Source: Bacteroidota bacterium (GTDB lineage: Bacteria > Bacteroidota > Bacteroidia > 2-12-FULL-35-15). Taken from it: a stretch of 64,000 bases of DNA. The stretch is taken from positions 1 to 64,000 of the forward strand of contig CANIQT010000010.1 of the NCBI GenBank assembly GCA_947469885.1. Reading direction: 5' to 3'. Position numbers and translations under genes: made by a program. This document shows, piece after piece, positions 1 to 15,660 of this stretch (position 1 is its first letter; every line of letters starts with the position of its first letter). The notes beneath the pieces are model-generated. The model saw only the letters and a list, made by a program, of their open reading frames with translations. It was not told the origin of the DNA and ran no database searches.

Positions 1-33
1 ATCAATGGGACATCATTCCGATAGCCCATTGAT
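1..33 (+). terminator. Hairpin followed by T-rich tract
   Basis: A 9-bp inverted repeat (ATCAATGGG at 1-9, CCCATTGAT at 25-33) is followed directly by ATTTTTAG. It resembles an intrinsic terminator for a gene ending left of the window. The stem is short and AT-rich, so this is tentative. Confidence 0.35.
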
Positions 34-189
34 ATTTTTAGAGTTCCAGTATGCCTTAAAAAACTCACACAAATAATTTCCATAAACAATGACAAATTTA
101 ACCAGTTTTAACTCTTAAAAAGTGTCAACCTATATCAGGACAAGACAAACGCACGTAACGAACATTTACGCAAAAACAAAACGACTACC

Positions 190-1155
190 TTGAAGAAACT
201 TTTGACAATATTACTTTTACTGACTTGCGGAATTTGTTGTGGACAAACTAACCTTGTTCCAAATGGAAGTTTTGAAACATATACTAATTGTCCTACAAAC
301 TATAGTCAATTACCAGTTCCTCCTTGGTATTCAGGAACAGCAGGTACACCTGATTATTATAATTCTTGTGCAGGTTCGGGAAACGGAACAATTGGGGTAC
401 CACAGAATTCATTTGGTTATCAAAACGCTTCTACTGGAAATGCTTATGTAGGAATATATACATTTGCTGTTTGGGGAACAGATACAATTGAAGCAAAAGA
501 ATACTTACAAATACAACTTACAGATACTTTAATTGCACAAAAAACATACTGCGTTAGTTTTTTTGTAAATCTTACAAATCCATCTCCACTTTTCTTTCCC
601 AATAATTGGTTTGCCATAACAGAAATTGGAATGTTAATTTCTAATGATTCAGTTTACTTAAATGGCGCATTAACATTGCCCTATATCCCTCAAATACAAT
701 CTCCCGCTGGCTTATATTTAAATGATACAACAAACTGGACAGAGATTTCTGGACAATATATTGCTCAAGGTGGAGAAAAATATATTACAATTGGAAATTT
801 TAACTTGCATTCAGATACAATGCGTATACTAACCTACAATACTCCTTCATTATCGTCATATTATTTTATTGATAATGTGAGCATAGTAGATTGTACTAAT
901 GAAGGTATAACAAACAACAACGAAATAAAAATAAATCTTTTTCCAAATCCCATTTTTGACAAATTAAATATTCAAGCAAACAATTACGAACCAACAGAAA
1001 TAATTCTTTACGACCTTTCATCAAGAAAACTTTTACAACAAGCATTTACAAACACAGCAACAATAAACACAGAAAAACTTGCAAAAGGAATGTATCTTTA
1101 CGAAGTGCGAAACAGAAACGGAATTATTAAGAACGGAAAAGTAATTAAACAATAG
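190..1155 (+). CDS. Secreted protein with type IX (type A) C-terminal sorting domain
   Basis: A 321-residue protein starting at TTG. It has a signal peptide (residues 1-19, hydrophobic LLTILLLLTCGICC then GQ). A beta-rich domain of about 200 residues follows, opening NLVPNGSFE, the jelly-roll-like 'NGSFE' start common in Bacteroidetes surface proteins. The last 75 residues (NLFPNPIFDKLNI, GMYLYEVRN, GKVIKQ) are a classic Por secretion/type A sorting domain that directs export through the outer membrane and attachment to the cell surface. The ligand of the N-terminal domain is unknown. No partner gene is adjacent; the next gene lies 690 bp downstream. Confidence 0.82.
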   Translation: MKKLLTILLLLTCGICCGQTNLVPNGSFETYTNCPTNYSQLPVPPWYSGTAGTPDYYNSCAGSGNGTIGVPQNSFGYQNASTGNAYVGIYTFAVWGTDTIEAKEYLQIQLTDTLIAQKTYCVSFFVNLTNPSPLFFPNNWFAITEIGMLISNDSVYLNGALTLPYIPQIQSPAGLYLNDTTNWTEISGQYIAQGGEKYITIGNFNLHSDTMRILTYNTPSLSSYYFIDNVSIVDCTNEGITNNNEIKINLFPNPIFDKLNIQANNYEPTEIILYDLSSRKLLQQAFTNTATINTEKLAKGMYLYEVRNRNGIIKNGKVIKQ

Positions 1156-1401
1156 CGCTTGAAACACGCGACACGAAAAGAAAGCACTACTGATAACATA
1201 AGATTTATGAACTTAGCGCAGCGATATCATGAACACAAATAAAAGAAAACAAAAGTGAGTAAATAAAAAAAAGGGGGGGCGACCTGACAGTATGAAGTTT
1301 CAAGCATTTAATTACGCTTGTCGCGGGGCGAAATGACATCCCCCGCTACGTCTTATTTAACAAGGCTTCCAGCCTTTTCCTAATTCGTAATTCCCTTTCA
1401 G

Positions 1402-1443
1402 CAACTTGCCATCAATCTAGGGCAACTTACCATCAATTTCCCA
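1402..1443. repeat. Two-copy degenerate 21-bp tandem repeat
   Basis: CAACTTGCCATCAAT starts at 1402 and CAACTTACCATCAAT at 1423, exactly 21 bp apart. The period matches the larger arrays elsewhere in the window. With only two copies, chance cannot be excluded. Confidence 0.4.
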
Positions 1444-1589
1444 CCATCAGAAAAACAAACCGCTTAGTTGGATATGCCTTTTCGGCATTTTTGCAACTCC
1501 TTTTCAGCTATTCTGTCCCAATTCCCAAAAATGGAACTCCGGGAACTATAATATTGAGGTTCTACAAGATTTCTTATGGGTAATAAATT

Positions 1590-1725
1590 TAAACACATAG
1601 GTACATAGGTTTAAACATAAAAAAACAAAAGTATTCATAGAAGCTTCGCTTTCACATAGCTTGGCTATGTGTATTCTTCGAAGAAGAACTATCTTGTTTC
1701 CTTTTTCTATGTACCTATGTGTTTA
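1590..1725. repeat. Long inverted repeat with nested hairpin
   Basis: The arms at 1590-1608 and 1707-1725 are perfect 19-bp reverse complements (TAAACACATAGGTACATAG and its complement). Inside lies a 7-bp hairpin, ACATAGC-TTG-GCTATGT (1654-1670). It belongs to the class of sentence-like intergenic palindromes common in this window. It may act as a terminator or a folded RNA, or may simply be a mobile palindrome. Confidence 0.55.
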
Positions 1726-1811
1726 AAATTTTTTCTGTTCCACAGGAAATATAGTAGAACTATTTTATTATTACCATAAATTCTACACCGCCCTTTATCT
1801 GTAAATTTTAT

Positions 1812-1819
1812 TAGTTTTG
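1812..1819 (+). promoter_or_regulatory. Bacteroidetes -7 promoter box for the glycan/CotH locus
   Basis: TAGTTTTG matches the Bacteroidetes -7 consensus TAnnTTTG and lies 25 bp before the ATG at 1845. No convincing -33 TTTG is visible at the usual distance. It is the best candidate start of transcription for the run of genes up to 14697. Confidence 0.5.
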
Positions 1820-1844
1820 CACTTTATAAATAAAAACAACCAAA

Positions 1845-2528
1845 ATGAACGAAATCAAAACATTTTTTATCGACAACCTTTCCGGTTTTTCGCCCAAAGC
1901 CATCCCTGGTTTTATATTTAGTTTTATTGTATGTGCAGTATTGTCGTTCGTTCTTGGCAAAGTTTATACAAAGTATGGCAACTCTTTATCCAACCGTAAA
2001 GCCTTTGCCCGCAATTTTATTATCCTTGCAATCACCACAATGTTTATTATTTCAGTTGTAAAATCCTCACTTGCTTTATCATTAGGTTTGGTGGGAGCTT
2101 TGTCCATTGTTCGTTTTCGTTCGGCAATTAAAGAGCCCGAAGAACTTACGTATTTGTTTCTTACTATCTCCATTGGTTTGGGCTGCGGGGCAGGACTGGC
2201 AGTGCTCACGGTTATTGCTTTTGTAGGTTTTGTTACCGTTATCTGGTTTTCCAACAAGTATAATAAATCTATCGAATCGCAAAATTTGTATTTAACCATT
2301 TCGAGCAACCAACCGGCAACTGTTAATTTAAAGGACATATTAGAAATGCTGAAAAAGCATTGCACCGGAATAAAATTGAAACGAACAGACGAAAATGCAG
2401 CAAGCATCGAAGCTTCCTTTTTTGTAGAGTTCGATAATTTTGAAAAGCTGGAAGCTGCAAAAGGAGCCATAAAAAACATACATCCCTCAGTTTCCATTTC
2501 ATTTATGGATAACACACGCGATTTTTAA
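1845..2528 (+). CDS. DUF4956 integral membrane protein
   Basis: A 227-residue protein with three or four membrane segments (about residues 20-40, 54-72, 74-92 and 103-130) and a soluble C-terminal tail of about 90 residues. The segment SLGLVGALSIVRFR followed by an acidic EPEEL and a glycine-rich helix is the signature of the DUF4956 family. The function is not established. In many bacteria the family sits next to VTC-type polyphosphate polymerase domains and CotH kinases, exactly the arrangement here (VTC 34 bp downstream, then CotH). I infer a membrane partner for that module. It is probably the first gene of the locus. Confidence 0.85.
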   Translation: MNEIKTFFIDNLSGFSPKAIPGFIFSFIVCAVLSFVLGKVYTKYGNSLSNRKAFARNFIILAITTMFIISVVKSSLALSLGLVGALSIVRFRSAIKEPEELTYLFLTISIGLGCGAGLAVLTVIAFVGFVTVIWFSNKYNKSIESQNLYLTISSNQPATVNLKDILEMLKKHCTGIKLKRTDENAASIEASFFVEFDNFEKLEAAKGAIKNIHPSVSISFMDNTRDF

Positions 2529-2562
2529 TTTGAAATCTGAAATCTGTAATTTGTAATTCATC

Positions 2563-3228
2563 ATGCGATACGAGCGTAAATTTATGATTACCGACTATTC
2601 TTTCAGAGATGTGGAGCAGGTATTAAAATTTCATCCTGCTTGTTTTTCGGAAGTGTATTACGAGCGAGTGGTAAACAATTTGTATTTCGATTCTCTTGAT
2701 TTTACAAACTATTACGACAATGTGGAAGGTTCACCCGAAAGGCAAAAGGTGCGCATTCGTTGGTATGGTAGTACATTTGGTGAAATTGAAAAACCTGTGT
2801 TGGAGTTTAAAATTAAAAGTGGATTGTTGGGAACAAAAGAATCGTACCAATTAAATTCCTTTAAATTAAATGCTGATTTTTCATTGTCAGAAATTAGTAA
2901 AATGCTGAATATTGAGGCATTGCCCAAACATATTAAAAACCAACTGGTGTCGTTAAAACCATCGTTACTCAACTCTTATACTCGCAAGTATTTTTTGTCG
3001 GCCGATAAAAACTACCGTGCCACTATTGACCATCGCATGACTTTTTATAGAGTAGGCATTCTTGGAAATACATTTGCAGCAAAATCGGTTGATTACAACT
3101 CCACAGTAATGGAAATAAAATACGAAGCGGCAATGGAAGCCGATGCGAAATTAGTTATTAATCACTTCCCCTTTTCCATCACCAAAAGCTCTAAATACCT
3201 GCAAGGACTGGAAAGAGTATTGAACTAA
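2563..3228 (+). CDS. VTC-domain polyphosphate polymerase-like protein
   Basis: A 221-residue cytoplasmic protein of the VTC/CYTH triphosphate-tunnel superfamily. Charged tunnel strands are visible in order: RYERKF at the N-terminus, NNLYFDS, KVRIRWYG (RxR), VLEFKIK (ExK), YRATIDHRM and MEIKYEA. It ends with SSKYLQGLER, typical of VTC domains. Eukaryotic Vtc4 makes polyphosphate from ATP with this fold; bacterial members are assumed but rarely shown to do so. The stop codon overlaps the next gene's ATG (at 3228), implying translational coupling with the CotH kinase. The 34-bp leader holds a small repeat of the AAATCTGAAATC type. Confidence 0.85.
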   Translation: MRYERKFMITDYSFRDVEQVLKFHPACFSEVYYERVVNNLYFDSLDFTNYYDNVEGSPERQKVRIRWYGSTFGEIEKPVLEFKIKSGLLGTKESYQLNSFKLNADFSLSEISKMLNIEALPKHIKNQLVSLKPSLLNSYTRKYFLSADKNYRATIDHRMTFYRVGILGNTFAAKSVDYNSTVMEIKYEAAMEADAKLVINHFPFSITKSSKYLQGLERVLN

Positions 3229-4997
3229 TGCAGCCAATTTTACAACCCAAAAAAAGCTCACCATTATCAATAAAATTGGTAATAGTGGGTGCGGGTGTTG
3301 TTGGAATTATTTCCCTTTTTTTTAGTGTAAAATATGCAGGCGAAAGCAAAAAAGAATACCCCGATTTGGTTTTTGATGCACAACTGAATGCTCCCGAAAC
3401 GGATGCCAAAGGTGGATTTTATACCGATGCCTTTGATTTGAAATTAATAACAAACAATTTTAACTGCAAAATTTATTATACACTCGATGGGTCAGAACCA
3501 TCATTAAAATCTAGTGTTTATAACAAGCCAATTATTATTATTAACAAAACAGAGGAATCAAATAATTTATCAAACATTCCAACATCACCGCGATGGAAAC
3601 CACCAGTTGGCAATGTTTTTAAAGGTACTGTTGTTCGTGCCATTGCTGTTACTGATGATAACAAAAAGAGTAAAGAATTTATTAGAACTTATTTTGTAGA
3701 TAAAAAAGGGGCCAAACGCTATAGTTTTCCGGTTGTTGCAATTACCATAAATCCGGATGATATGTTTGGCTATAAGAATGGAATATATGTGTTGGGAAAA
3801 AATTATGATGATAAAAGGGATTATTTAAAAAAGGAAATACCACTTGATTTGCCTTGGTGGAAATATCCCTCTAATTATTTGAAACGTGGAAACAATGCCG
3901 AACGACCTGTATTTGTTGAGTTTTTTGACAACAATACTCAGTCTGGTTTTGCATCTAATGCTGGCATTAGAATAAACGGTAATGCAACAAGGGGGTATGC
4001 TCAAAAGTCGTTGCGAATTAATTTTAGAAGCGAATATGGTTTGGATGCATTAAACTACAAACTCTTTCCGACCAGTGAAGTTACTTCGTATAAATCATTT
4101 ATTTTGCGAAACTCAGGAAACGATTGGGATAAAACCATGTTTAGAGATGCTTTTATGCAATCGCTAATGTGGGATTCTAAAATGGATACACAGAATAACC
4201 GCCCTGCAATTGTATTTATTAATGGAGAGTATTGGGGAATACATGCGCTTTGCGAGCGGTTTGATGAAAATTACATTTCCCAAAAATATAAAATCAGCAC
4301 CGATAGTATTATAATTTTAGAAATGTCGGGGAATGTGTATTACGGGAAAAAGCGCGATGGAAGTGATTTTAAAGAGTTGCTTGCTTTTATCAAAGCAAAT
4401 GATTTTAGTATTAACGAAAATTACGAAAAGGTAAAGAACCAAATGGATATAGATAACTTCATAGATTTTGTAATTACCAATGTTTATTACTGCAACAGCG
4501 ATTGGCCCAATAACAATGTAAAATTTTGGCGATACAAAACTAGTCCTAAGGGAGTTGATTCAGCAAAAAACAGAGATGGAAGATGGAGGTGGATGCTTTA
4601 CGATACTGATTATGGTTTTGGTTTTACCGGGGCCGATGCTTATCAAATGAATTTATTAAACAAAGCAAAAACTACCGGAAGCGTAGGAATTATTTTTTCG
4701 GGTTTGCTTCAAAGCAAATTATTTGAAACTAAATTTATTTTGGCATTTCAACAGAGACTAAACACTACTTATAACAAAGATAAAGTGATTCAAAAGATAA
4801 ATCAATTTGAAGCCATCTTTAGTCCTGAAATGGAAGAAAATATCAACAGATGGAGGGCAATGGGTTCGTATTCGAAATGGAAAGATAATGTAATTGGTTT
4901 AAGAGACTTTGCAACAAAACGCCCTGCAATTCAGGTGGAACAATTGAATAGCTTTTTTAAATTATCGGGAGCAAATAAAATTACTATTATTAAATAA
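3228..4997 (+). CDS. Membrane-anchored CotH-family kinase with chitobiase-C-like domain
   Basis: 589 residues. One N-terminal membrane anchor lies at about residues 15-34. A chitobiase/beta-hexosaminidase C-terminal-type beta domain follows at about 60-155 (YYTLDGSEPS and AIAVTDDNKKS are diagnostic). A CotH kinase domain fills about 200-560. Key CotH features are present: LRNSGNDWDKTMFRDAF, INGEYWGIHALCERFDENY (Glu343) and WMLYDTDYGFGF with the metal-binding Asp459/Asp461. CotH enzymes are atypical secreted protein Ser kinases (spore coat CotH). The topology predicts an extracytoplasmic active site. The first base overlaps the stop of the VTC gene. The substrate is unknown; the glycan machinery or a secreted protein is inferred. 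Confidence 0.85.
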   Translation: MQPILQPKKSSPLSIKLVIVGAGVVGIISLFFSVKYAGESKKEYPDLVFDAQLNAPETDAKGGFYTDAFDLKLITNNFNCKIYYTLDGSEPSLKSSVYNKPIIIINKTEESNNLSNIPTSPRWKPPVGNVFKGTVVRAIAVTDDNKKSKEFIRTYFVDKKGAKRYSFPVVAITINPDDMFGYKNGIYVLGKNYDDKRDYLKKEIPLDLPWWKYPSNYLKRGNNAERPVFVEFFDNNTQSGFASNAGIRINGNATRGYAQKSLRINFRSEYGLDALNYKLFPTSEVTSYKSFILRNSGNDWDKTMFRDAFMQSLMWDSKMDTQNNRPAIVFINGEYWGIHALCERFDENYISQKYKISTDSIIILEMSGNVYYGKKRDGSDFKELLAFIKANDFSINENYEKVKNQMDIDNFIDFVITNVYYCNSDWPNNNVKFWRYKTSPKGVDSAKNRDGRWRWMLYDTDYGFGFTGADAYQMNLLNKAKTTGSVGIIFSGLLQSKLFETKFILAFQQRLNTTYNKDKVIQKINQFEAIFSPEMEENINRWRAMGSYSKWKDNVIGLRDFATKRPAIQVEQLNSFFKLSGANKITIIK

Positions 4998-5018
4998 CCT
5001 GAAATTTCGATTTTACTG

Positions 5019-5026
5019 TATCTTTG
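5019..5026 (+). promoter_or_regulatory. Bacteroidetes -7 box upstream of O-antigen ligase
   Basis: TATCTTTG is a perfect TAnnTTTG match, 22 bp before the GTG at 5048 and within the 50-bp gap after the CotH gene. It suggests an internal promoter dividing the locus. No clear -33 element is seen. Confidence 0.5.
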
Positions 5027-5047
5027 AAAACAAAAAAATAATTACTT

Positions 5048-6370
5048 GTGTTAGAATATTACGTTAAAAACGTTCAGTTTTATATTATTTTAAGTGTCTG
5101 GTTGGTGGTGGGTATGTATGCTGGTCCGGCAATTTTTGTCGTTCTGCCATTTACATTATTTCTTATGCGCAACAAAGGAATGTGGGAAGAGTTGCTCATT
5201 GGCTTTTTTTTCATTCTTATTCTTTCCGACAGTTTAGTCCCCGCGCTTCATTTTGCCAAAAACATTAAGATTGTCTATTTGGTAGTGTTGGCAGGGTTTG
5301 TGGTTTTAGATTTTGAGGAATTTGCTCCTCTTAATAATCTATATAGAGTCTTTATACCGTTCTTTTTAATTGCCATTCTCTGTTTGTTTTTTTCGCCATC
5401 TCTTTTCATTGGTTTTCAAAAAACATTTTCCTATATCCTAATGGTGGTTCTAATTCCTACATTTATGAGCAAATTTTATAGGGATGGAAAAGAATTTGTT
5501 TTCAGAAGCATAATTTATTTTGGTGTAACCATTTTGCTTGCGGGTTTTGTCTTGTATTTTGTAAAACGAGATTATGCTTACATTGCTTTGATTCATAGAT
5601 TTACGGGTGTATTTGGAAACCCTAATGGTTTGGGATTGTTTGCATTTTTGCTGTTTACTTTATTTTTTACACTTAATGATATTTTTGAAGATTTGTTTTC
5701 GAACCGGCAAAAGATCTTCATCTATTCTGTTATTGTTTTTTCGGTTTTTTTATCTAATTCCCGTAATGCAATTTTAAGTGTTGTTATTCTAGTTGTTTTT
5801 GAAAAAATATTTAAAAAGTCTTCTTTTCTAGGATTCATTTTTTCTGTCATCTTATTTTTTATTAATATTTTAATTTCAGATTATATTCCTATTCTTATTA
5901 AGGAATTTGGATTGGAATCATTTTTCCGATTAAATACGTTACAGGAATTAAGTGGTCGGGCAATTGCTTGGCAATTTGCATGGGCTAAGATTCAAAACAA
6001 TTTTTTTATCGGTAGAGGATTTGGTTATGATGAGTTTACAATGAGAGCCAATTATCACTTACTTAGTAAATTGGGTACACAGGGAGGTGTCCACAGTTCC
6101 TATCTTTCTTTATGGATGGATTTTGGTTTGGTGGGTTTGCTCATTTATTTTCGATCCTTTTTCCTCGTGTTTATTCGTGCCATTAAACTTAACCGACTTG
6201 CATTTTCAATAATGTATGCTGTATTATTTTCAGCTGCTTTCGAAGGATTATTCATTGGTTCATTGAATCCTCAAATGATTATTTTATTAATGATTATTAC
6301 CCTTCTTAATGATTCGGATTTTTATGAAAGAGAACAGGAACTGCCTCAACTTGTGGTCGCAACAAAGTAA
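5048..6370 (+). CDS. O-antigen ligase / Wzy-type polysaccharide polymerase family membrane protein
   Basis: 440 residues starting at GTG. The protein is very hydrophobic, with about ten to twelve predicted membrane helices and a large periplasmic loop near residues 300-350. That loop carries the Wzy_C-type features GRGFGYDEF and GGVHSSYLSLWMDFG (loop His). Members either join O-antigen to lipid A-core or polymerise undecaprenyl-linked repeat units in the periplasm. With several sugar-modifying genes downstream, polymerisation or ligation of an exported glycan is the natural role. The exact acceptor cannot be read from sequence. It lies between the two CotH genes, 50 bp after the first and 24 bp before the second. 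Confidence 0.8.
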   Translation: MLEYYVKNVQFYIILSVWLVVGMYAGPAIFVVLPFTLFLMRNKGMWEELLIGFFFILILSDSLVPALHFAKNIKIVYLVVLAGFVVLDFEEFAPLNNLYRVFIPFFLIAILCLFFSPSLFIGFQKTFSYILMVVLIPTFMSKFYRDGKEFVFRSIIYFGVTILLAGFVLYFVKRDYAYIALIHRFTGVFGNPNGLGLFAFLLFTLFFTLNDIFEDLFSNRQKIFIYSVIVFSVFLSNSRNAILSVVILVVFEKIFKKSSFLGFIFSVILFFINILISDYIPILIKEFGLESFFRLNTLQELSGRAIAWQFAWAKIQNNFFIGRGFGYDEFTMRANYHLLSKLGTQGGVHSSYLSLWMDFGLVGLLIYFRSFFLVFIRAIKLNRLAFSIMYAVLFSAAFEGLFIGSLNPQMIILLMIITLLNDSDFYEREQELPQLVVATK

Positions 6371-6394
6371 TTTGTATTTATTTTAAATCATTCA

Positions 6395-8989
6395 ATGCAA
6401 ATAGAACAGCAGGAGATAAAAAGGAAAAGTAAAACAGGAATTAAAAAAAACAAAAATAGGTTTTGGTTTGTTTTTCTTTTAGTTGCTCTGACCGTGGTAT
6501 TTGTTGGAAATCGTTATGCTTCTAAAATTCTCCAAACCAAAGGGTATGGTGGTGTTTGGGATTTTGTAAAGATAATTTCTTCCAATTACTGGAGCGGAAT
6601 GGATGCTCACCCAGAAAAAATTTCTATCGAAATAAAAGACAAAGATTATAAATTTCTGGAAAAGAACAGAGAGAGGGCATTGGAACGAAATGTTATCATC
6701 AATAATATTGATGGAGATTATGTGCCGGCAACTTTGGAGTACAACGGAAAAAAAATGAAAGTTAAACTTCGTTTGAAAGGACACATGACTGACCATTTAC
6801 AGGATAACAAATGGTCGTTCAGAATAAAAATAAAGGATAAAGATTCGTTTATGGGGATGAAACGGTTTTCTATACAACATCCTGGTACCCGTGGTTATGT
6901 TTATGAATGGATTTACCATCAATTGATGAAACGTGAAGATATTATCGCTTTACGTTATAAATTTATTGATGTTACAGTTAATGGTCGAGATTGGGGAATT
7001 TATGCAGTAGAAGAAAATTTCAATAAAGAATTGATTGAAAATAACAATCGAATTAATGCTCCTATTATTCGTTTTAATCCTGATTTATATTGGGTGAACA
7101 GATACAGTATGATGAAACACCAGTCATCAGTTGATGAATTTGCTACTTACTATTCCGCTTACGAGGAATCTTACAGTGAAGATGCTGTGCTTGCTGATTC
7201 CACTCAAAGAAATTATTTTTTGAAAGCGATGGCATTGGTAGAAGGATTGCGAAATAAAAAACTTACAGTTGAGCAGGTGTTCGACATCGAACGAATGGCA
7301 AAATTTCATGCAATTATTGACTTGGTGGGAGGGGAGCACAGTATGGATTGGAGCGATATTAAATATTATTATAATCCTGTTTCGGGCAAACTGGAACCAA
7401 TAGCGTATGAAAGTTTTACCGATTTGCATGCGCGTGGAATCACAGGTAGTTACAGGTATGTTCAATTAGACAGTGCAATTGAAAATTTTGAAGATTGGCA
7501 TACTGCTATTTTTAGTAATCCTAAATTTTTTAATTTATATATTAAAGCATTAGAGCGGGTTTCAGAACCTTCCTATCTCAACAATTTTTTTAATTCTGAT
7601 CATTCTGAATTAATTGAAAACCTAAAAATTCTCAATAAGGAATTTCCTTACAAACGATTTGAGAAAGAAGGATATTACAGAAATCAAAACATGATTAAAA
7701 GGGTTTTGAATACACCTAAAGCTATTCATGCTTATTTTAATTGTGTTTCAAACAATACCATTCACTTGCAAATTGGGGAAATAGAATCCTTACCTGTAGA
7801 AATAAAATCGATGTCAATTGGGAATGTTAAAGCATATCCAGCTACAACTGTTATACTTCCTGCACAACAAAGGAATCAATATGTTAATTATAAAAACGTT
7901 GATTTTGTTATGCCACCAAATTTTAAATGGAGCGATTCGTTGAGTAATTCTCTGAAAGTTAATTATTCTATTCTTGGTTCCACAAAATTGATAGAAGCAG
8001 TTGTTTTCAGTTATCCTCATACTGATAACGAATTTATTACGGATGATTTAAAAAACAAAAAAGGAAATATCAATGATTTTTCTTTTTTACAAATTGACGA
8101 AGCGAATAAAACTATTTTTATTAAAAAGGGGAAGCAGGTGATAAGCTCCGATTTAATTATTCCTTCCGGCTATAAAGTATTTGCCAGTAGTGATGTTTCG
8201 TTAGATTTGAAAAATAATGCAAAAGTAATTTCCTATTCCACTTTTGTTTTTTCTGGGAATGAGGAGTCACAAATTGTTATCGAATCAAGCGATTCAACAT
8301 CTGAAGGTATAGAATTTATTAATGCACCTAAATCAAAATTTAATTATGTGACGTTTAAAAATTTCCCGAAAGTAAGAGATGAACAATGGGCTCGAACAGG
8401 TGCAATCACTTTTTATGAATCTCCTGTTGAGCTTAATTATTGTAGTTTCTATAATTGCAAAGCAGAGGATGCTATAAATTTAATTCGCTCTAACTTTGCT
8501 TTCAATTCATGTTTGTTTCATAAGATGCATGATGATGCTTTAGATGCAGATTTTTCGGAGGGAACTGTCACCAATTCAGTATTTGAAAAGTGCAACGAGA
8601 ATGCTTTAGATATTTCTATGTCGAAAATAAATATTAAATCTATTTATGTTAATGGTTCAAACAACAAAGCTTTCAATATAAAGGTAGGAGCTCAAATAAT
8701 AGGTGATGATGTGAGAATAAAAAATGCAAACATTGCTATCTCCGCTGAAGATGCCTCGAATATTGATTTAGAAAATGTAACAATTACAGCTTCTCAATAT
8801 GGGGTGGTTGCTTATAAAAATAAACCGGGAGGCGGACATCCAACCATCAAAATTAAAAAATTGGTTTTTTCTGATGTGAAGACAAAATATTTGAAAGAAA
8901 AAAAATCAACCATTATTATTGATGGAAAAGAAATTGAAGAAGAAGTAAGTGATGTTGAAAATATTATTAAAGGTGAAAAGAAAAAATAA
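6395..8989 (+). CDS. CotH-like protein fused to a right-handed beta-helix
   Basis: 864 residues. A basic N-terminus is followed by one membrane anchor at about residues 24-42. A CotH-like domain spans about 65-480: KVKLRLKGHMTDHL, MKRFSIQHPGTRGYVYEW, VNGRDWGIYAVEENF with Glu206/Glu207. The C-terminal 250 residues (about 610-850) are beta-helix repeats with NC/AF/DA turns such as YCSFYNCKAEDAINL and CNENALDISMS. At the place where the upstream CotH protein has YDTD, this one has YESFTD (Glu339, Asp343), so the metal site is altered. It may be a divergent kinase or a pseudokinase that binds glycan through its beta-helix. The 3' end overlaps the next gene by 41 bp. Confidence 0.8.
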   Translation: MQIEQQEIKRKSKTGIKKNKNRFWFVFLLVALTVVFVGNRYASKILQTKGYGGVWDFVKIISSNYWSGMDAHPEKISIEIKDKDYKFLEKNRERALERNVIINNIDGDYVPATLEYNGKKMKVKLRLKGHMTDHLQDNKWSFRIKIKDKDSFMGMKRFSIQHPGTRGYVYEWIYHQLMKREDIIALRYKFIDVTVNGRDWGIYAVEENFNKELIENNNRINAPIIRFNPDLYWVNRYSMMKHQSSVDEFATYYSAYEESYSEDAVLADSTQRNYFLKAMALVEGLRNKKLTVEQVFDIERMAKFHAIIDLVGGEHSMDWSDIKYYYNPVSGKLEPIAYESFTDLHARGITGSYRYVQLDSAIENFEDWHTAIFSNPKFFNLYIKALERVSEPSYLNNFFNSDHSELIENLKILNKEFPYKRFEKEGYYRNQNMIKRVLNTPKAIHAYFNCVSNNTIHLQIGEIESLPVEIKSMSIGNVKAYPATTVILPAQQRNQYVNYKNVDFVMPPNFKWSDSLSNSLKVNYSILGSTKLIEAVVFSYPHTDNEFITDDLKNKKGNINDFSFLQIDEANKTIFIKKGKQVISSDLIIPSGYKVFASSDVSLDLKNNAKVISYSTFVFSGNEESQIVIESSDSTSEGIEFINAPKSKFNYVTFKNFPKVRDEQWARTGAITFYESPVELNYCSFYNCKAEDAINLIRSNFAFNSCLFHKMHDDALDADFSEGTVTNSVFEKCNENALDISMSKINIKSIYVNGSNNKAFNIKVGAQIIGDDVRIKNANIAISAEDASNIDLENVTITASQYGVVAYKNKPGGGHPTIKIKKLVFSDVKTKYLKEKKSTIIIDGKEIEEEVSDVENIIKGEKKK

Positions 8990-10037
8990 AAATAGATTTA
9001 TTTTAATTTGTTTTGGATTAATGGTCCTGATGAATAACTTGTCTTCTCAAGTAACTTCTCCTTTCAATCATTTGGCTATTAAAGACTCGTTGAAAGATTA
9101 TTCTTTTGTTGTAAGTGGTCATTTTCATGGTGCTTCCACCAATGCTTCCACTTTTCCAGCTGCCACTTTGTTAGCAAATATTGATTCACTTAATGCTATT
9201 CAACCTTTGTTTTTGATGAGTTTGGGCGATATGTTTATTGATGTGAACGATACTTATATCAATCATTACAAAAATAATTTGTTCAATAAATTAAAAATAC
9301 CATTATTCAATGCCGTTGGAAACCATGATTTGACAGGCAATTTGTACGAAAACCTATACGGCAAAACTTTTTTTTGCTTTTCTCACCACTCAGAATTGTT
9401 TATTGTGCTTAATACAGAAGTGAATGATGGTAGCATAAAAAACGAACAACTAAAATTATTTTCAAATGCAATGGATACTGCTTTGGGTAGTGAAATAAAA
9501 AATGTTTTTATTTTCTCTCATCGTCCCATTTGGGCAGAAAGGATTAATAAATATAATAAGCTATTCAGCGATAACACACGAACAGCAATCGGGAGCAATA
9601 ATTTTACTGAGGACATAAAACCATTACTACAAAAAATTTCTAAAATCAAAAATGTGTTCTGGCTTTCGGGATCGATGGGTGGAATGGCACCTGCATCTTT
9701 TTTTTATGACAAAGAGGAAGAAACAAATGTAACGTTTATGCAGACTGCTATCCGTGATTTACCTAGAGATGCAATACTTCAAATAATCATAAATAATGGT
9801 GCTGTTTCAATGAAAGGTATATCACTAACAGGTCAACATTTGGAACCAATAGAAAATTACAATATTGATTACTGGAATAAAACAACTGCTCCCGAACAGT
9901 CTTTCAATTTTAGATTGCTTCCTTATTTAACCAAACAAATACTGATAAATTATGTGTTTTGGTTTGGTTTTTTCTTCTGCCTGATTTTAATCTTTAGCTT
10001 TACTTTTATCAGAAAAAGATGGAGAAGAAAAAAATAG
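8949..10037 (+). CDS. Membrane-anchored metallophosphoesterase-like protein
   Basis: Up to 362 residues. An N-terminal signal/anchor (about 17-33) is followed by a calcineurin-like fold with LGDMFID (93-94 GD), VGNHD (124-127) and FSHRP (His191). A C-terminal membrane helix (about 334-355) ends in RKRWRRKK. The usual first DxH motif is replaced by SGHFHG (56-61) and the last GHxH by SGSMGG (240-245), so the di-metal centre is incomplete or rearranged. Start is uncertain: ATG at 8949 or 8952, or GTG at 8973, which gives a more typical signal peptide. All overlap the upstream gene, indicating coupling. Between a CotH-like protein and a glycosyltransferase it could remove or transfer extracytoplasmic phosphate; that is inference. 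Confidence 0.7.
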   Translation: MMLKILLKVKRKNKNRFILICFGLMVLMNNLSSQVTSPFNHLAIKDSLKDYSFVVSGHFHGASTNASTFPAATLLANIDSLNAIQPLFLMSLGDMFIDVNDTYINHYKNNLFNKLKIPLFNAVGNHDLTGNLYENLYGKTFFCFSHHSELFIVLNTEVNDGSIKNEQLKLFSNAMDTALGSEIKNVFIFSHRPIWAERINKYNKLFSDNTRTAIGSNNFTEDIKPLLQKISKIKNVFWLSGSMGGMAPASFFYDKEEETNVTFMQTAIRDLPRDAILQIIINNGAVSMKGISLTGQHLEPIENYNIDYWNKTTAPEQSFNFRLLPYLTKQILINYVFWFGFFFCLILIFSFTFIRKRWRRKK

Positions 10038-11071
10038 TTTTTCTTTATACTGAGCCTGCAGGTTACTTTATTGCATGTTTAAATGAGTTGGTTACCAGAG
10101 AAATTATGGAGGTACATTTGGTCAGGTGGGCTGTAAATAAAGAAGCTCCCTTTCAATTCAAATTCCCTGATTCTGTTTTTTTGTACAACAGAAATTCCTA
10201 TAATTCTAATGAGTTAGAAGAATTAATACAAACAATTTCTCCTGATATTATTTGCTGTAGTGGCTGGATTGATAAGGAATACACCAAAATCTGCAAACTG
10301 TTCAGAAATAGAATTCCAGTAATAGTAATTATTGACAATCAATGGAAAGGGACATTGAAACAACGATTGGCTACTTTTTTAAGTCCGTTTACGGTTTTAA
10401 ATCACTACACACATGCTTTCATACCTGGTAGCTTACAGGCTGAGTTTGCTAAGCGATTGGGTTTTAAAAAAGAAAATATTTTGTCTGGATATTATACTGC
10501 TGATGTTGATTTGTTTCGGAAACAATATTTGCAAAACAAGGAAGCAAAGAAAAATAATTTCCCGAAAAGGTTTATTTTTACTGGTCGCTATTATGAGTTT
10601 AAAGGAATAAAAGATTTATGGCAGGCATTTACTGAATTGCAAAACGAGCAATCAAATGAATGGGAATTATGGTGCCTTGGTGTAGGTGACATTGAACCAA
10701 TTGTTCATCCGAAAATAAAGCATTTTGGTTTTGTGCAACCTGAGGAAATGGAAAAACACATTAGCCAAACTGGCGTATTTGTTTTGCCCAGCAGGTTCGA
10801 ACCTTGGGGAGTAGTCTTGCACGAGTTTGCTGCAGCAGGATTCCCTTTAGTGTGCAGCAACGAAACAGGAGCAAGAGTTGCTTTTGTGGAGGACGGAAAA
10901 AATGGATTTGTTTTTAATGCCGGAAATGTAATTGAATTGAAGCAGGTGTTAAAAAAAATTATGAAAATGAATGCTGAAGAACTTTTTAAGATGGGCGAAA
11001 TCAGTGCTAAAAAAGCATTGACAATAACTCCTAAGAAATGGACAGATACAATTTTAAGTGTGTTGAAATAA
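10019..11071 (+). CDS. GT4-family glycosyltransferase
   Basis: A 350-residue GT-B fold cytoplasmic enzyme. The C-terminal donor domain shows FTGRYYEFKGIKDL, LWCLGVGD and the EX7E motif FEPWGVVLHEFAAAG, characteristic of GT4 retaining glycosyltransferases. It probably adds a sugar from a nucleotide donor to a lipid-linked intermediate of the glycan made by this locus; donor and acceptor are not predictable. It overlaps the phosphoesterase gene by 19 bp and its stop directly abuts the TTG start of the deacetylase, so the genes are clearly co-transcribed. Confidence 0.82.
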   Translation: MEKKKIVFLYTEPAGYFIACLNELVTREIMEVHLVRWAVNKEAPFQFKFPDSVFLYNRNSYNSNELEELIQTISPDIICCSGWIDKEYTKICKLFRNRIPVIVIIDNQWKGTLKQRLATFLSPFTVLNHYTHAFIPGSLQAEFAKRLGFKKENILSGYYTADVDLFRKQYLQNKEAKKNNFPKRFIFTGRYYEFKGIKDLWQAFTELQNEQSNEWELWCLGVGDIEPIVHPKIKHFGFVQPEEMEKHISQTGVFVLPSRFEPWGVVLHEFAAAGFPLVCSNETGARVAFVEDGKNGFVFNAGNVIELKQVLKKIMKMNAEELFKMGEISAKKALTITPKKWTDTILSVLK

Positions 11072-11971
11072 TTGAAAGTGGAAAACTCAATCTCTATAAA
11101 ATATACAGATTCTTACAAAGAAGTAAAGGCACTACAACCTTTTGCCATTCGCTCTTTGCTTCGAAATATGGCATTATCGGGCTTATCATTAAAAAATGGA
11201 ATAGCAGGAATTGAAAAATATTTATTGAAGCCCAGAGTTCAGTTTTTATACATACATCACATATTTAAAGATGAATTGCAAAATTTCGAAAACCTACTTT
11301 CTACTTTAAGTAAACATCATACTTTTCTTTCTTACAGCGATGCTGTAAATAAAATTTTGACAGGAACCGTGGATAAGCCTTATATATCCATCAGTTCGGA
11401 TGATGGTTTTAAAAGCAACTTGCTTGCTATGGAAGCACTAAGGAAATACAATGCAAGTGCCTGTTTTTTTATCAATCCTGGTTTGATTGGTGAAACCGAT
11501 TTTAGTGTGATAAAAAAACATTGTAAAGAAAAATTAAATTTTCCTCCGGTTGAATTTTTATCTTGGAAAGACGTGGAAACTTTACAAAATGCAGGTCATG
11601 AAATTGGTTCACATACCATGAATCATATTGATATTGCTAAATCAACTCATACAGAAATAGACGAAGACATGCGTCAAACTTTTGAAATATTGAAAATTAA
11701 ATGTGGTGGTGTTGCTCATTTTGCTTTTCCTTACGGCAGATTTTTTAATTTTAATGAGATAGGTAGAAAAGCAGTATTCGATGCAGGTTTCACTTCCTGT
11801 GCTACTGCCGAAAGAGGTTGTCATATTAAGCAGGATACTGTTTTACTTCCTGAAAAATTTTGTATTCGAAGGGATCATGTGGTGTTGGATTGGAACATGA
11901 ATCATATTTTATATTTCATTGCCAACAATTCAAAAAAAGCAAATGTGTCAACTAATTTATTTCCTTATTAA
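11072..11971 (+). CDS. Polysaccharide deacetylase (NodB/CE4 family)
   Basis: 299 residues with a TTG start immediately after the previous stop (GTG two codons later is an alternative). NodB signatures are present: SISSDDGF with Asp110/Asp111, the metal motif SHTMNH (His181, His185), and FAFPYGRF. The family removes N- or O-acetyl groups from sugars using a divalent metal. No signal peptide is apparent, so it may act on cytoplasmic intermediates. It sits directly before a formyltransferase, which suggests that an N-acetyl is removed and the free amine then formylated. This coupling is inferred from gene order, not shown. Confidence 0.8.
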   Translation: MKVENSISIKYTDSYKEVKALQPFAIRSLLRNMALSGLSLKNGIAGIEKYLLKPRVQFLYIHHIFKDELQNFENLLSTLSKHHTFLSYSDAVNKILTGTVDKPYISISSDDGFKSNLLAMEALRKYNASACFFINPGLIGETDFSVIKKHCKEKLNFPPVEFLSWKDVETLQNAGHEIGSHTMNHIDIAKSTHTEIDEDMRQTFEILKIKCGGVAHFAFPYGRFFNFNEIGRKAVFDAGFTSCATAERGCHIKQDTVLLPEKFCIRRDHVVLDWNMNHILYFIANNSKKANVSTNLFPY

Positions 11972-11974
11972 GCA

Positions 11975-12763
11975 ATGAAAGTGGTTATCCTCACCAGCTC
12001 TATGAATGGTACACTTGCTCATCATTTGCCATTTTTATTGAAAAGTAAATCAATAGAAATAAAGATGGTGGTGGTGAGTGAAGGATTGGTTGCAAATAAA
12101 AACAAGCTATATAAAAAAAAGCTAAAAAAAATACTGAGCATCGGTGTTTTAGGTGCGATAAACGGAATACGGATGCGGAAATGGTTTGATGAAGATATTA
12201 AACAACATACCACCTTTATTGATTTGAAAGCAGTCTGTGTTGCTAATGGCATCTCTCTAAAATCAACTCCTTCGATTAATTGCAAAGAAACGGAAAACTG
12301 TTTTCGCGAAGCAAATGCTGATATTGGTTTGAGTTTGGGCAATGGATATATTGCAAAACGAATATTTTCTATTCCGTCATTTGGTATGTTGAACATTCAT
12401 CACGAAGTGCTGCCTGATTATCAGAATGCACAAAGCGTTATTTGGCAATTGTACAATGGCTCTACTACTACTGGTTTTACGATTCATAAAATTGATGAGC
12501 ATATTGATACCGGTGCAATTTTGTATCAAGAAAAAATTAATATTGAAATTAAAAACACGCTCGGAGAAACCGTTTCGGCTACTATTGCTAAATTGTATGA
12601 TGCTTCGGCAAAAGCATTAGTTAATGTACTTGAAAATTTTGCTCAATATAATTCTGTTGCAAAACTACAAGGTAATGGTGTTTCGTACACCACTCCTAGT
12701 ATATGGAAGTTTATAAAAATGAATAATCAATTCAAAAAAATAAAAAGGAACAACTCAAAATAG
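11975..12763 (+). CDS. Formyltransferase family protein (methionyl-tRNA/sugar formyltransferase-like)
   Basis: 262 residues, shorter than Fmt (about 315). The formyltransferase core is visible: LSLGNGYIAKRIF, MLNIHHEVLPDY with catalytic Asn140 and His142, and FTIHKIDEHIDTG with Asp178. These are the Asn-His-Asp residues used with N10-formyltetrahydrofolate. The N-terminal half is unlike housekeeping Fmt, and the setting among glycan genes favours a sugar N-formyltransferase. It starts 3 bp after the deacetylase. A small hairpin (12749-12770, AACAACTC/GAGTTGTT) straddles its end before asnB. Confidence 0.75.
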   Translation: MKVVILTSSMNGTLAHHLPFLLKSKSIEIKMVVVSEGLVANKNKLYKKKLKKILSIGVLGAINGIRMRKWFDEDIKQHTTFIDLKAVCVANGISLKSTPSINCKETENCFREANADIGLSLGNGYIAKRIFSIPSFGMLNIHHEVLPDYQNAQSVIWQLYNGSTTTGFTIHKIDEHIDTGAILYQEKINIEIKNTLGETVSATIAKLYDASAKALVNVLENFAQYNSVAKLQGNGVSYTTPSIWKFIKMNNQFKKIKRNNSK

Positions 12764-12780
12764 AGTTGTTGATTTAAGGC

Positions 12781-14697
12781 ATGTGTGGAATTAACGGTAT
12801 TCTTGGTTTAGCGGATAAAAGCATTGCTGCAAAAAAAATTGCAGCAATGAATTTTGCTTTGCGCCATCGCGGACCAAATGATGAAGGAACTTTTGTGGAT
12901 GATAAAATTGCATTGGGTCACCGAAGGCTTTCTATTATTGACCTTTCGGCTGCCGGACATCAACCCATGACCTCGTATGACGGGCGTTATCAAATTGTGT
13001 ATAATGGAGAGTTGTATAATTTCAAAGAGTTGAAATTTGAATTGCAGCGTGTGGTTTCAGGCTCAGGACAACAAGCTTATTTATTTCAAACCAATACCGA
13101 TACCGAAGTAATTATTGCATCTTATGTTAGATGGGGGGCTGATTGTGTGAACCACTTTAACGGTATGTTTGCTTTTGCAATTTGGGATACAGAAACTAAA
13201 GAATTATTTATTGCCAGAGACCGACTGGGCATAAAGCCTTTGTATTACTGCTATACCGAAGGTGTGTTTGCGTTCTCTTCCGAAATGCGTGCATTGCTTT
13301 CGAGCGAATTGCTGCCTAAAAAAATAGATAATAATAGCCTGATTGATTACCTCCGTTATCAAACAGTGCATGCACCCAACACAATTGTGAAAGGATTGAA
13401 GATGTTGATGCCCGGTCATTTTATTGAAATGAAAAATGGTGAACTCCGGATAAAAAATTACTGGAGTGTTTCCAAAAATAATTCGGAACTGGCAAAAGGA
13501 AAAACATATACTGAAGTTTGCAAAGATGTAAACGCACTGTTGACAAAGGCTGTGGAAAGGCGTTTGATTGCTGACGTTCCGTTTGGTGCTTTTCTTTCGG
13601 GTGGAATTGATTCGAGTGCCATTGTGGGGTTGATGAGTAAAGTATCAACCGAAAAAGTGAAAACATTTTCGGTGACATTTGACGAAAGTGAATTTTCGGA
13701 AGCAAAGTATGCTCAACTAATTGCTAAAAAATTTAATACCGACCATCACGAAATTGTTTTGAAACCCGCTGATTTTATAGAGCAATTGCCTTATGCATTA
13801 AAAGCAATGGACCACCCCAGCGGTGACGGACCAAATACGTACATTGTATCGAAAGCTACTAAAGAAGCTGGGATTACTATGGCTCTTTCTGGTTTGGGTG
13901 GTGACGAATTGTTTGCCGGGTATGATGTGTTTAAACGTGCATTGGAATTAAATAGAAAAAATTGGCTCAACGCGCTGCCTTTGTTTTTGCGTAGAGCAGG
14001 AGGGAACCTCTTATCATCAACCAATAAAACCATGGCTACCGAAAAAATTGCGGAGCTATTGAAACAAAACAAAATAAATTTTAATTCGTTCTATCCAATA
14101 TCACGGCAGGTGTTGATGGATAATCAAATTCTGCAGATAGTGAATAGCGAACAGCGAATAGCGAATAGGGGAGAGTTGCCTGCTAATAGAGTATCCGAAA
14201 TTATTAAAGAATTCCAAATTTCAGATTTCAAATTTCAAATTTCAGAAACTTCCTGTGCTGAAATTTCAACGTACATGCAAAACGTTTTGCTGGGCGATGC
14301 CGACCAAATGAGCATGGCGCATGCGCTGGAAGTGCGTGTGCCTTTTATTGATTATACGTTGGTGGAATATGTGATGGGAGTACCCGATAAATTTAAAAAT
14401 CCAACAACCCCTAAAAAATTACTGGTTGATAGTTTAGGCGATTTGTTGCCTCCCGAAATTGTGAACCGCCCTAAGATGGGTTTCACTTTCCCTTGGAAAC
14501 AATGGATGAAAAACGAATTGAAATCGTTTTGCGAAAGTAAAATTCATTCGCTTGCCCAGCGAAATTTGTTTAACGAGCAAGGTGTTTTAAAATTGTGGAA
14601 AGCTTTTCTTCAAGATAATCCCCGCGTTACTTGGTCGCGAATATGGCATTTGGTGGTGCTTGAAAACTGGTTGCAGGAGAATGGAGTAGAGGATTAG
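12781..14697 (+). CDS. asnB: Asparagine synthetase (glutamine-hydrolysing)-like amidotransferase
   Basis: 638 residues. Met-Cys2-Gly starts the class II glutaminase domain (MCGINGILG, LRHRGPND, LGHRRLSIIDLS, YNGELYN). The synthetase domain carries the PP-loop LSGGIDSS (from about 272), SGLGGDELFAGYD and ADQMSMAHALEVRVPF. Standalone copies make asparagine; copies in exopolysaccharide loci are thought to amidate sugar carboxylates, which fits here as the last gene of the locus. Residues about 454-494 are an insertion encoded by AT-rich simple repeats (NSEQRIANRG, then FQISDFKFQIS), absent from normal family members, between the C-terminal helices. Codon frame is kept. Function is probably retained because the insert sits in a loop, but this is untested. 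Confidence 0.83.
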   Translation: MCGINGILGLADKSIAAKKIAAMNFALRHRGPNDEGTFVDDKIALGHRRLSIIDLSAAGHQPMTSYDGRYQIVYNGELYNFKELKFELQRVVSGSGQQAYLFQTNTDTEVIIASYVRWGADCVNHFNGMFAFAIWDTETKELFIARDRLGIKPLYYCYTEGVFAFSSEMRALLSSELLPKKIDNNSLIDYLRYQTVHAPNTIVKGLKMLMPGHFIEMKNGELRIKNYWSVSKNNSELAKGKTYTEVCKDVNALLTKAVERRLIADVPFGAFLSGGIDSSAIVGLMSKVSTEKVKTFSVTFDESEFSEAKYAQLIAKKFNTDHHEIVLKPADFIEQLPYALKAMDHPSGDGPNTYIVSKATKEAGITMALSGLGGDELFAGYDVFKRALELNRKNWLNALPLFLRRAGGNLLSSTNKTMATEKIAELLKQNKINFNSFYPISRQVLMDNQILQIVNSEQRIANRGELPANRVSEIIKEFQISDFKFQISETSCAEISTYMQNVLLGDADQMSMAHALEVRVPFIDYTLVEYVMGVPDKFKNPTTPKKLLVDSLGDLLPPEIVNRPKMGFTFPWKQWMKNELKSFCESKIHSLAQRNLFNEQGVLKLWKAFLQDNPRVTWSRIWHLVVLENWLQENGVED

Positions 14698-14709
14698 TTC
14701 ATTGTTATT

Positions 14710-15333
14710 CTATTCCATCAGCTCTGCTTTCAATTCCACTTCCGGTTTTTTAAAATCGTCCACCTCGCTGCCCGATAGCCATTTTTCCTCGTTTTCGGGT
14801 GTAAGTATCACAGGCATTCTTTTTTTAGTATTGTGTATTTCACTCATTAGTTCGTTGGCTTGCGTGGTAACAATGGTATAGGTTTTCAAGATTTCTCCTG
14901 TTTGCTTATCCACCCATTCGCTCCATATACCAGCCATAGCAAAGGCTTCGTGGTTAGGCAAAGTAATGTGATATTTTTCTTTCTGTTTGCCTTTAGCATC
15001 CATCCATTTCCATTCGTAAAAACCATCCACCAGCACCAGACACCTTTTTTTTACTGCGTTTCGAAACGATGGCAATTCTTTTATGGTTTCTATTTTTGCG
15101 TTCAATAGGTTTTTTCTAAATGTTCTGTCTTTTGCCCATGCAGGCATCAATCCCCAACTTAACAACGAAATTACTTCGGGCTTATCATTCGTAATTACAG
15201 GGTTTTCGGGAAAAGCGAATCCAATATTATAAAGCGATAATTTTAGTTTTAATTTTAAATCGCGCTCTGCCATTCGTTTAAAACGCTTTTCCAAATCTTC
15301 TTGTGATTTTTGAATAGAGGTGGTATAGCACAT
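14710..15333 (-). CDS. SRAP-family protein (abasic-site processing; YedK/HMCES-like)
   Basis: 207 residues when started at ATG 15333. That start is chosen because the catalytic Cys must be residue 2 (MCYTT) and because a -7 promoter box lies just upstream, inside the longer reading frame. SRAP residues are all present: Cys2, Asn78 (LLNAKIET), Glu107 (VDGFYEW) and His167 (SEIHNTKKRMPVIL). The family crosslinks covalently to abasic sites in single-stranded DNA to shield them. The gene is monocistronic, convergent with asnB (12-bp gap) and divergent from the gene at 15661. Confidence 0.88.
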   Translation of the reverse strand: MCYTTSIQKSQEDLEKRFKRMAERDLKLKLKLSLYNIGFAFPENPVITNDKPEVISLLSWGLMPAWAKDRTFRKNLLNAKIETIKELPSFRNAVKKRCLVLVDGFYEWKWMDAKGKQKEKYHITLPNHEAFAMAGIWSEWVDKQTGEILKTYTIVTTQANELMSEIHNTKKRMPVILTPENEEKWLSGSEVDDFKKPEVELKAELME

Positions 15334-15356
15334 TGGTTTTATTTTTTTATTCGACA

Positions 15357-15364
15357 CAAAAATA
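15357..15364 (-). promoter_or_regulatory. Bacteroidetes -7 box for the SRAP gene
   Basis: On the minus strand this reads TATTTTTG, a perfect TAnnTTTG, 23 bp before the ATG at 15333. It supports the short start with Cys2 and argues against initiation at 15369. Confidence 0.5.
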
Positions 15365-15367
15365 AAC

Positions 15368-15443
15368 AAAAAAACTCCCGCCCTTTTTCAAGAGCGGGAG
15401 TTTTTTGGGGAGTTGTTGGTGAAAACACCAACAACGGCTTTAA
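15368..15443. repeat. 76-bp repeat, copy 1 (hairpin pair)
   Basis: Identical over 76 bp to 17009-17084. It contains two hairpins: a GC stem CTCCCGC/GCGGGAG extended by A6/T6 (15369-15406) and the perfect palindrome GTTGTTGGTG-AAAA-CACCAACAAC (15412-15435). A degenerate third copy of the second hairpin occurs at 36536-36563. Copies 1 and 2 bracket the 15661-16974 gene. Confidence 0.85.
15369..15406. terminator. Bidirectional intrinsic terminator-like hairpin (copy 1)
   Basis: A6-CTCCCGC, a 12-nt loop, then GCGGGAG-T6: a symmetric terminator form. At this site it lies upstream of both neighbouring genes, so it would terminate read-through or act as an attenuator rather than end either gene. 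Confidence 0.5.
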
Positions 15444-15660
15444 ATGGTAAATGGTATGCAAAAATTTTATCCCATAAGTGATAAAATAAATTTGAACGAA
15501 CGAAGAAAAAAAGTGAAACTAGATGAAATGAATATTTCTGAAACGGACGATACGGCTGAATATTAGTTCTAAGTTTAAAAATCAAAAGTTAGTTGCCTGT
15601 TTTGTTTTACATTATTTTTCTTATTATTGTTTTCTGAAATAATACATTTTTAAGAATAAC

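Follow-up and report, generated by a model that had tools for sequence, protein, structure and literature searches.

A conserved, probable surface-glycan operon of an uncultured Bacteroidota bacterium encodes VTC, DUF4956, and CotH proteins

The window analyzed here is a stretch of 64,000 nucleotides from the draft genome (4.07 Mb) of an uncultured Bacteroidota bacterium. At its beginning, which is also the start of contig C10, lies a gene cluster in which a predicted polyphosphate (polyP) polymerase of the VTC type, a DUF4956 membrane protein, and two CotH-domain proteins stand among genes of glycan assembly. Ten genes of the forward strand, from position 1845 to 14697, form one run in which no gap exceeds 50 bp and no overlap exceeds 41 bp; the distances between neighbors, in order, are 34, −1, 50, 24, −41, −19, 0, 3, and 17 bp. 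The gene order is DUF4956, VTC, CotH (CotH1), Wzy_C, CotH with a beta-helix (CotHb), a calcineurin-like ectoprotein, a family 4 glycosyltransferase (GT4), a deacetylase, a formyltransferase, and AsnB (Table 1). An earlier note, made without database searches, had listed ten same-strand genes in this order. The open reading frames (ORFs) confirmed the list, the order recurred in other genomes of the lineage, and in nine of the ten proteins the domain named in the note scored above its Pfam gathering threshold. Its further predictions, that the genes lie within a glycan operon, that the VTC protein is polymerase-like, and that CotH1 is an active-looking secreted kinase, were also supported by the sequence comparisons. 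The operon is real and conserved, and it is a variant of a published accessory module.

Table 1. Features of the operon and its putative promoter, with positions in the window.
Feature	Position	Strand	Evidence and remarks
Candidate Bacteroidota-type −7 promoter element TAGTTTTG	1812..1819	+	25 bp before the DUF4956 gene
DUF4956 membrane protein	1845..2528	+	PF16316, 67.8 bits (cut-off 30.6); model and fold search
VTC tunnel domain, predicted polyphosphate polymerase	2563..3228	+	PF09359, 100.9 bits (cut-off 23)
CotH kinase 1 (CotH1), N-terminal membrane anchor	3228..4997	+	PF08757, 168 bits; hydropathy
Wzy_C O-antigen polymerase/ligase-like membrane protein	5048..6370	+	PF04932, 58.8 bits (cut-off 31.7)
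CotHb, membrane-anchored CotH domain with divergent metal site and C-terminal beta-helix	6395..8989	+	PF08757, 38.4 bits
Calcineurin/purple-acid-phosphatase-fold ectoprotein	8949..10037	+	AlphaFold model, Foldseek, motifs; hydrophobic segments at both ends
GT4 glycosyltransferase	10019..11071	+	PF00534/PF13692
Polysaccharide deacetylase, accessory	11072..11971	+	PF01522; in 2/18 loci
Formyltransferase, accessory	11975..12763	+	PF00551; in 2/18 loci
AsnB-type amidotransferase	12781..14697	+	PF00733, 286 bits; TIGR01536 above cut-off, TIGR03108 below

Conservation was assessed in 36 genomes of the window's order, all of one genus, at a threshold of E 1e-40 or better. The VTC subfamily was found in 20 of them and the ectoprotein in the identical 20; because the two share the same genomes, the block appears to have been gained or lost as a unit. 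Seven of the 16 genomes without the block were more than 95% complete. Past GT4, 18 loci were readable, namely the window and 17 that were fetched. The usual block comprised DUF4956-VTC-CotH-Wzy-CotHb-ectoprotein-GT4 and was followed by AsnB in 16 of the 18; of the two others, locus L162 ended at a contig end and L173 had no AsnB in the 6.6 kb fetched. The deacetylase and formyltransferase preceded AsnB in the window genome and one relative (L166) only. The N-formylated glycan of the earlier note did not hold up as a general trait, and deacetylation plus formylation was rejected as the essence of the pathway. An epimerase and an aminotransferase were found in 11/18 loci, L166 included (four other genes separate the two in L173), and the aminotransferase alone in one; probes detected neither enzyme in five. 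In three loci, Wzy and CotHb were separated by an MBOAT pair, and upstream of the block the relatives had additional genes for GT2, GT4, acyltransferase, and pyruvyltransferase enzymes, which the window lacks.

In a class sample of 395 genomes (ectoprotein at E 1e-20 or better, at most five candidates scored per genome), the ectoprotein was present in 36, including 26 outside the genus. Twenty of these 26 loci were fetched, and 15 of them had a same-strand CotH at a distance of about 4 kb or less. Locus L137 (family f66) carried the seven-gene block from DUF4956 to GT4, with no AsnB in the fetched stretch, and L138 (family f47) carried the block without Wzy and GT4. For the condition that would have refuted the earlier note, a lack of conserved synteny beyond close relatives, the outcome is mixed: the whole block was found in the window's genus-level group, a single genome from a different family had the block minus AsnB, and parts of it occur further away.

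The VTC protein consists of 221 aa, with the VTC domain as its sole domain above cut-off and zero hydrophobic segments by hydropathy. Its profile matched Vtc4 structures (E 5.6e-6), and the basic positions of the N-terminal part were matched by like residues. Residues R2, K6, R64, R66, E184, K186, K208, and K211 were invariant in all 25 aligned sequences. The stretch from E184 to K211, with the candidate metal Glu and catalytic Lys, also faced like residues of Vtc4, but at a negligible score (−0.3 bits); one acidic-patch Glu (E4) of the tripolyphosphatases was retained. The roles of these tunnel residues, including Vtc4 K458 as the catalytic Lys, the metal Glu, and the tripolyphosphatase acidic patch, follow PMC4641920. 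Because the protein has no membrane segment and appears to have polymerase-type tunnel residues, it probably makes polyP from ATP in the cytosol, and we consider polymerase activity likely. The eukaryotic VTC complex has an SPX domain and its own membrane domain. The window VTC shares with yeast Vtc4 the tunnel-domain family and basic residues, among them a candidate for the catalytic Lys, but has neither SPX nor a fused membrane domain, its likely membrane partner being DUF4956. The model of the latter (pLDDT 77.9, pTM 0.56) showed a helical membrane part and a C-terminal ferredoxin-like/ACT-type domain. A second VTC-DUF4956 pair is encoded elsewhere in the same genome (L013, 7886-9954, G000:C3), followed by a DUF2490 protein and with no CotH within 4 kb.

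CotH1 and CotHb differed in their predicted catalytic sites. The CotH1 profile matched the Bacillus CotH structure 5jd9 (E 2.6e-4), and D425 and D459, invariant in 15/15 sequences and aligned to 5jd9, are the equivalents of D228 and D251, a correspondence numbered from the 23-residue spacing in 5jd9. The variants D228Q and D251A of Bacillus CotH are inactive (PMC7821199). On these residues, CotH1 is fairly likely to be an active kinase. In CotHb, D318 was kept and E339 stood at the place of D251 in 19/19 sequences, an alignment placed by eye, as the profile search gave no Protein Data Bank match. Since Tyr-Glu-Ser (19/19) stands where CotH1 has Asp-Thr-Asp, with Glu in place of the metal-binding Asp, CotHb is probably not a normal kinase. 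No Pfam match was obtained for the beta-helix in the window copy; PF13229 is precomputed on many of the listed homologs. CotH1 thus shares with the Bacillus spore-coat kinase the CotH domain and both catalytic Asp equivalents; however, it is membrane-anchored and sits in a glycan operon, and its companion CotHb lacks one catalytic Asp. The hydrophobic anchors of CotH1, CotHb, and the ectoprotein, identified by hydropathy, are consistent with domains outside the inner membrane. Nine further CotH matches are present elsewhere in the same genome (G000; contigs C1, C2, C6, C7, C14, C21, and C33), one of them in a 1945-codon open frame.

The sixth protein of the operon had no Pfam match at E 0.1. 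Its AlphaFold model (pLDDT 84.2) was assigned by Foldseek to the metallophosphoesterase fold (1ute, E 1.3e-9; 3ib7, E 2.2e-9). Compared with purple acid phosphatase and calcineurin-like phosphoesterases, it keeps the fold, both the GD and the GNHD motif, and the motif IV His, but has His for Asp in motif I and SGS for GHxH in motif V. Both changes of metal ligands were found in all 24 close relatives (alignment A2). In the wider ectoprotein set nearly all rows were altered, most with GD in the last motif, and L034 was canonical. The name phosphoesterase, given by the earlier note, is therefore correct for the fold, while a role as an ordinary editing enzyme was not supported; the altered site points to binding, or to a different chemistry. 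Flavobacteria-like loci (L061, L089, L091, and L072) have a degenerate phosphoesterase near a CotH-VTC-DUF4956-CotH run.

Among the remaining proteins, the Wzy_C protein had 13 hydrophobic segments in a simple scan, some of them overlapping, and polymerase and ligase were indistinguishable. Exopolysaccharide loci of the XrtA/PEP-CTERM type include Wzy_C, a deacetylase, GT4, and an AsnB-type amidotransferase among their parts. The window proteins differ from these, with scores below the model cut-offs (469 versus 816.9 bits for AsnB and 16.1 versus 276.2 for the deacetylase). Taken as a whole, the locus is very likely a glycan operon.

The distribution of VTC and its neighbors was then compared in two sets of loci, whose neighborhoods were read by six-frame ORFs, a neighbor being a same-strand gene no more than 4 kb away. 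Set 1 came from a scan of named genomes with the VTC alignment and kept 80 of 322 confirmed loci, chosen by similarity to the window VTC; set 2 was an even draw of 40 loci from the phylum, and the sets overlap by one locus (L124 = L048). DUF4956 adjoined VTC in 77/80 loci of set 1 and 40/40 of set 2, and CotH in 65/80 and 15/40, some of the 15 misses in set 1 being cuts at contig ends. The recurrent partnership of the three families, asserted by the earlier note, was thereby supported. Given how the two sets were drawn, the triad characterizes the window's VTC clade more than it does VTC proteins in general. DUF4956, VTC, CotH, and Wzy occurred in this order in 16/80 loci of the VTC scan, the same records as the loci of the window's order. 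In a tree of 122 VTC sequences, the window fell into a group of 82, of which 67 had CotH alongside in loci labeled with 12 phyla; bootstrap was unsettled and long branches occurred at the deep split, so only the gross grouping is used, and many named loci are contigs of metagenome-assembled genomes, whose phylum labels may contain binning errors. A phylum sample of 198 genomes contained VTC in 37, CotH in 81, and DUF4956 in 59, and all 37 VTC genomes had both others. The distance correlation was 0.94 for VTC/DUF4956 and 0.52 for VTC/CotH (80 loci with all three genes, uncorrected for ancestry).

We propose, tentatively and with somewhat less than even confidence, that the operon assembles a surface glycan and includes its own unit for phosphotransfer outside the cytoplasm, which VTC-DUF4956 feeds or regulates. 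In its favor are the joint presence of VTC and ectoprotein in the order, the near-constant adjacency and correlated distances of VTC and DUF4956, the occurrence of CotH and DUF4956 in all 37 VTC genomes of the phylum sample, the envelope partners of VTC loci, the residues that VTC and CotH1 appear to keep, and the glycan genes upstream of the block in relatives. The outline of this mechanism, glycan assembly combined with extracytoplasmic phosphotransfer, is moderately supported. VTC would make polyP from ATP in the cytosol, and DUF4956, its near-constant membrane partner, would act with it to bring either high-energy phosphate or a signal that depends on phosphate through the inner membrane. 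CotH1, as the likely active kinase, would phosphorylate the glycan, the glycan acceptor, or an assembly protein, and CotHb and the degenerate phosphoesterase may serve mainly in binding or scaffolding. Wzy_C would polymerize or transfer the glycan built by the glycosyltransferases, which AsnB probably amidates.

That a product or effect reaches beyond the inner membrane is suggested mainly by the envelope partners of VTC. In the phylum sample, 35 of 41 VTC loci had a same-strand CotH within 4 kb (15 loci) or a DUF2490 (13) or weakly HlyD-like protein (20) within 2.5 kb, overlaps included. DUF2490 was confirmed by Pfam in 5/5 proteins tested, and one of three HlyD-like proteins passed the HlyD_3 cut-off, the other two giving no match. 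A specific form of the proposal would make VTC-DUF4956 a polyP exporter, the chain being the extracytoplasmic donor for CotH kinases that phosphorylate the growing surface glycan, with an outer-membrane barrel or an HlyD-like adaptor as partner in other clades; we regard it as distinctly doubtful. If true, it would explain the phosphate source of secreted bacterial kinases. The ATP source for the spore-coat CotH is called unanswered in PMC7821199, and the conserved pairing of VTC, as predicted polyP polymerase, with a membrane protein that has partners outside the cytoplasm makes this donor question accessible to a concrete, inexpensive test. The same partners in other clades (DUF2490 or HlyD-like), together with the VTC tunnel residues and an ectophosphoesterase whose degeneration is suited to binding, would also agree with exported chains that remain on the cell surface and accompany the glycan as an anionic co-polymer, bound there by CotHb, by its beta-helix, or by the phosphatase-fold protein. 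However, this leaves no clear task for the active-looking CotH1, and export itself is conjectural; we consider such surface polyP improbable.

The phosphotransfer proposal can be compared with published systems. In streptococci and clostridia, genes for CotH, a poly-phosphate polymerase, DUF4956, and DUF4832 are neighbors of pel, with a variant in bifidobacteria (PMC7112168). The genes SIR_1592, SIR_1593, and SIR_1594 of Streptococcus intermedius encode a membrane protein whose ACT domain is intracellular, the polymerase, and CotH, respectively (PMC12345266); in favor of the proposal, loss of the DUF4956-type gene or of the CotH gene there altered both Pel quantity and aggregation. A Clostridium perfringens locus has a run of VTC, "tubulin/FtsZ," and CotH (PMC2879425). 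A DUF4956-DUF2490 pair belongs to the iron stimulon of Bacteroides thetaiotaomicron (PMC10434189). The earlier note did not know the combination as a described pathway; in fact, the triad is published as pel accessory genes (PMC7112168; PMC12345266), whereas the variant with the glycan set differs. As in the Gram-positive pel operons, the three families are adjacent and lie beside polysaccharide synthesis genes; CotH is described there as secreted and the DUF4956-type protein as membrane-bound with an ACT domain. In contrast, the Bacteroidota operon of the window has Wzy_C, GT4, and AsnB and no contiguous pelDEADAFG, and it adds a second CotH with a beta-helix and the phosphatase-fold ectoprotein. 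The authors of PMC12345266 did not find the CotH-polymerase-DUF4956 arrangement outside pel; our comparison shows that the triad is widespread beyond pel and has become part of a glycan operon of the Wzy type that encodes two CotH proteins. Among the matches listed in searches of the open literature, which includes few subscription papers and bioRxiv preprints, neither a CotH-Wzy-CotH unit nor export by VTC-DUF4956 was described.

Several observations weigh against a phosphotransfer unit fed by VTC-DUF4956. Fold searches with DUF4956 matched its C-terminal domain only and so carry no information on the membrane part, and nothing points to a channel; that it moves phosphate or polyP is conceivable, though we lean against it. 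In S. intermedius (PMC12345266), the polymerase mutant (SIR_1593) still aggregated, with no change in Pel reported, although deletion of SIR_1592 or SIR_1594 each reduced aggregation in sputum medium by more than 50%. This published polymerase deletion argues against polyP as the phosphodonor for CotH, a role we consider quite unlikely. In the same source, deletion of SIR_1592 (DUF4956) gave more Pel and that of SIR_1594 (CotH) less, that is, opposite directions. Such opposite shifts favor a regulatory reading, in which VTC-DUF4956 would sense or adjust cytosolic phosphate or ATP and CotH, using ATP or another donor, would phosphorylate an assembly protein to set the amount of glycan, the glycan itself staying unphosphorylated. 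Regulation of Pel through CotH phosphorylation has been proposed (PMC7112168), and the faint MgtC similarity of DUF4956 (Pfam E 0.072, below the cut-off) and its ferredoxin-like/ACT-type domain point in the same direction. Purely regulatory action would, however, leave the predicted extracytoplasmic partners in 35/41 VTC-DUF4956 loci unexplained, and we consider it rather unlikely.

Gene distribution also weighs against the proposal. In the 198-genome sample, 44 of the 81 CotH genomes had no VTC, as had 22 of the 59 DUF4956 genomes, 18 of these with CotH. Among the controls, Bacteroides ihuae had VTC and DUF4956 and no CotH match, and Bacillus subtilis had CotH without VTC. Nine genomes of another genus (g111) carried CotH-Wzy-phosphoesterase with no VTC or DUF4956 in the fetched stretches; CotHb was detected in eight of these loci and AsnB in six, and GC content was 61-66% in the four loci measured. 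All nine had VTC elsewhere, next to DUF4956, an arrangement from which the glycan unit with CotH is seen to be separable from VTC-DUF4956 as a neighbor. Of 150 neighbors chosen from 51 loci of other lineages, 143 were scanned, and the commonest families (25 of 163 listed) included glycosyltransferases (6 members), epimerase (5), metallophosphoesterase (5), pyrophosphatase (4), and Wzy_C (3). Glycan families made up the smaller part of these 25, and the idea that the triad always lies in glycan loci was rejected. Occurrence of VTC-DUF4956 apart from the glycan unit, in g111 and in the second copy L013, might suggest a housekeeping phosphate-store pair inserted by chance into an unrelated glycan operon. 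The gene order shared across the lineage genomes and the window-type VTC beside CotH in loci labeled with 12 phyla contradict this highly improbable explanation, and chance co-location was rejected by the exact match of VTC and ectoprotein presence in the 36 genomes.

The surroundings of the operon comprise a gene for a protein with a type IX secretion system (T9SS) tail upstream and a convergent gene after the last operon gene. The motif TAnnTTTG, which we take to be the Bacteroidota −7 consensus and on which the candidate promoter label rests, had a single forward-strand match within positions 1150-1850, the element listed in Table 1. A sigma-70 style promoter scan was not used, since its 53 sites showed no excess over shuffled sequences (55.9), and an Rfam search of positions 1-20000 gave zero matches. 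Directly upstream of the operon lies a MITE-like inverted repeat with 22 bp arms (1588-1727); elsewhere in the genome, the arm pair recurs at similar spacing on C1 (288321-288463) and on C8 (91648-91785), and three further positions have a single arm. Elsewhere in the window, the protein at 15661-16974 is composed of HNH_repeat units, which are associated with homing endonucleases, and a beta-propeller-repeat protein at 34077-36482 bears a T9SS C-terminal sorting tail. A Peptidase_S74 intramolecular chaperone domain lies close to the end of a 1735 aa protein (37393-42600), which otherwise had no Pfam match at E 0.001.

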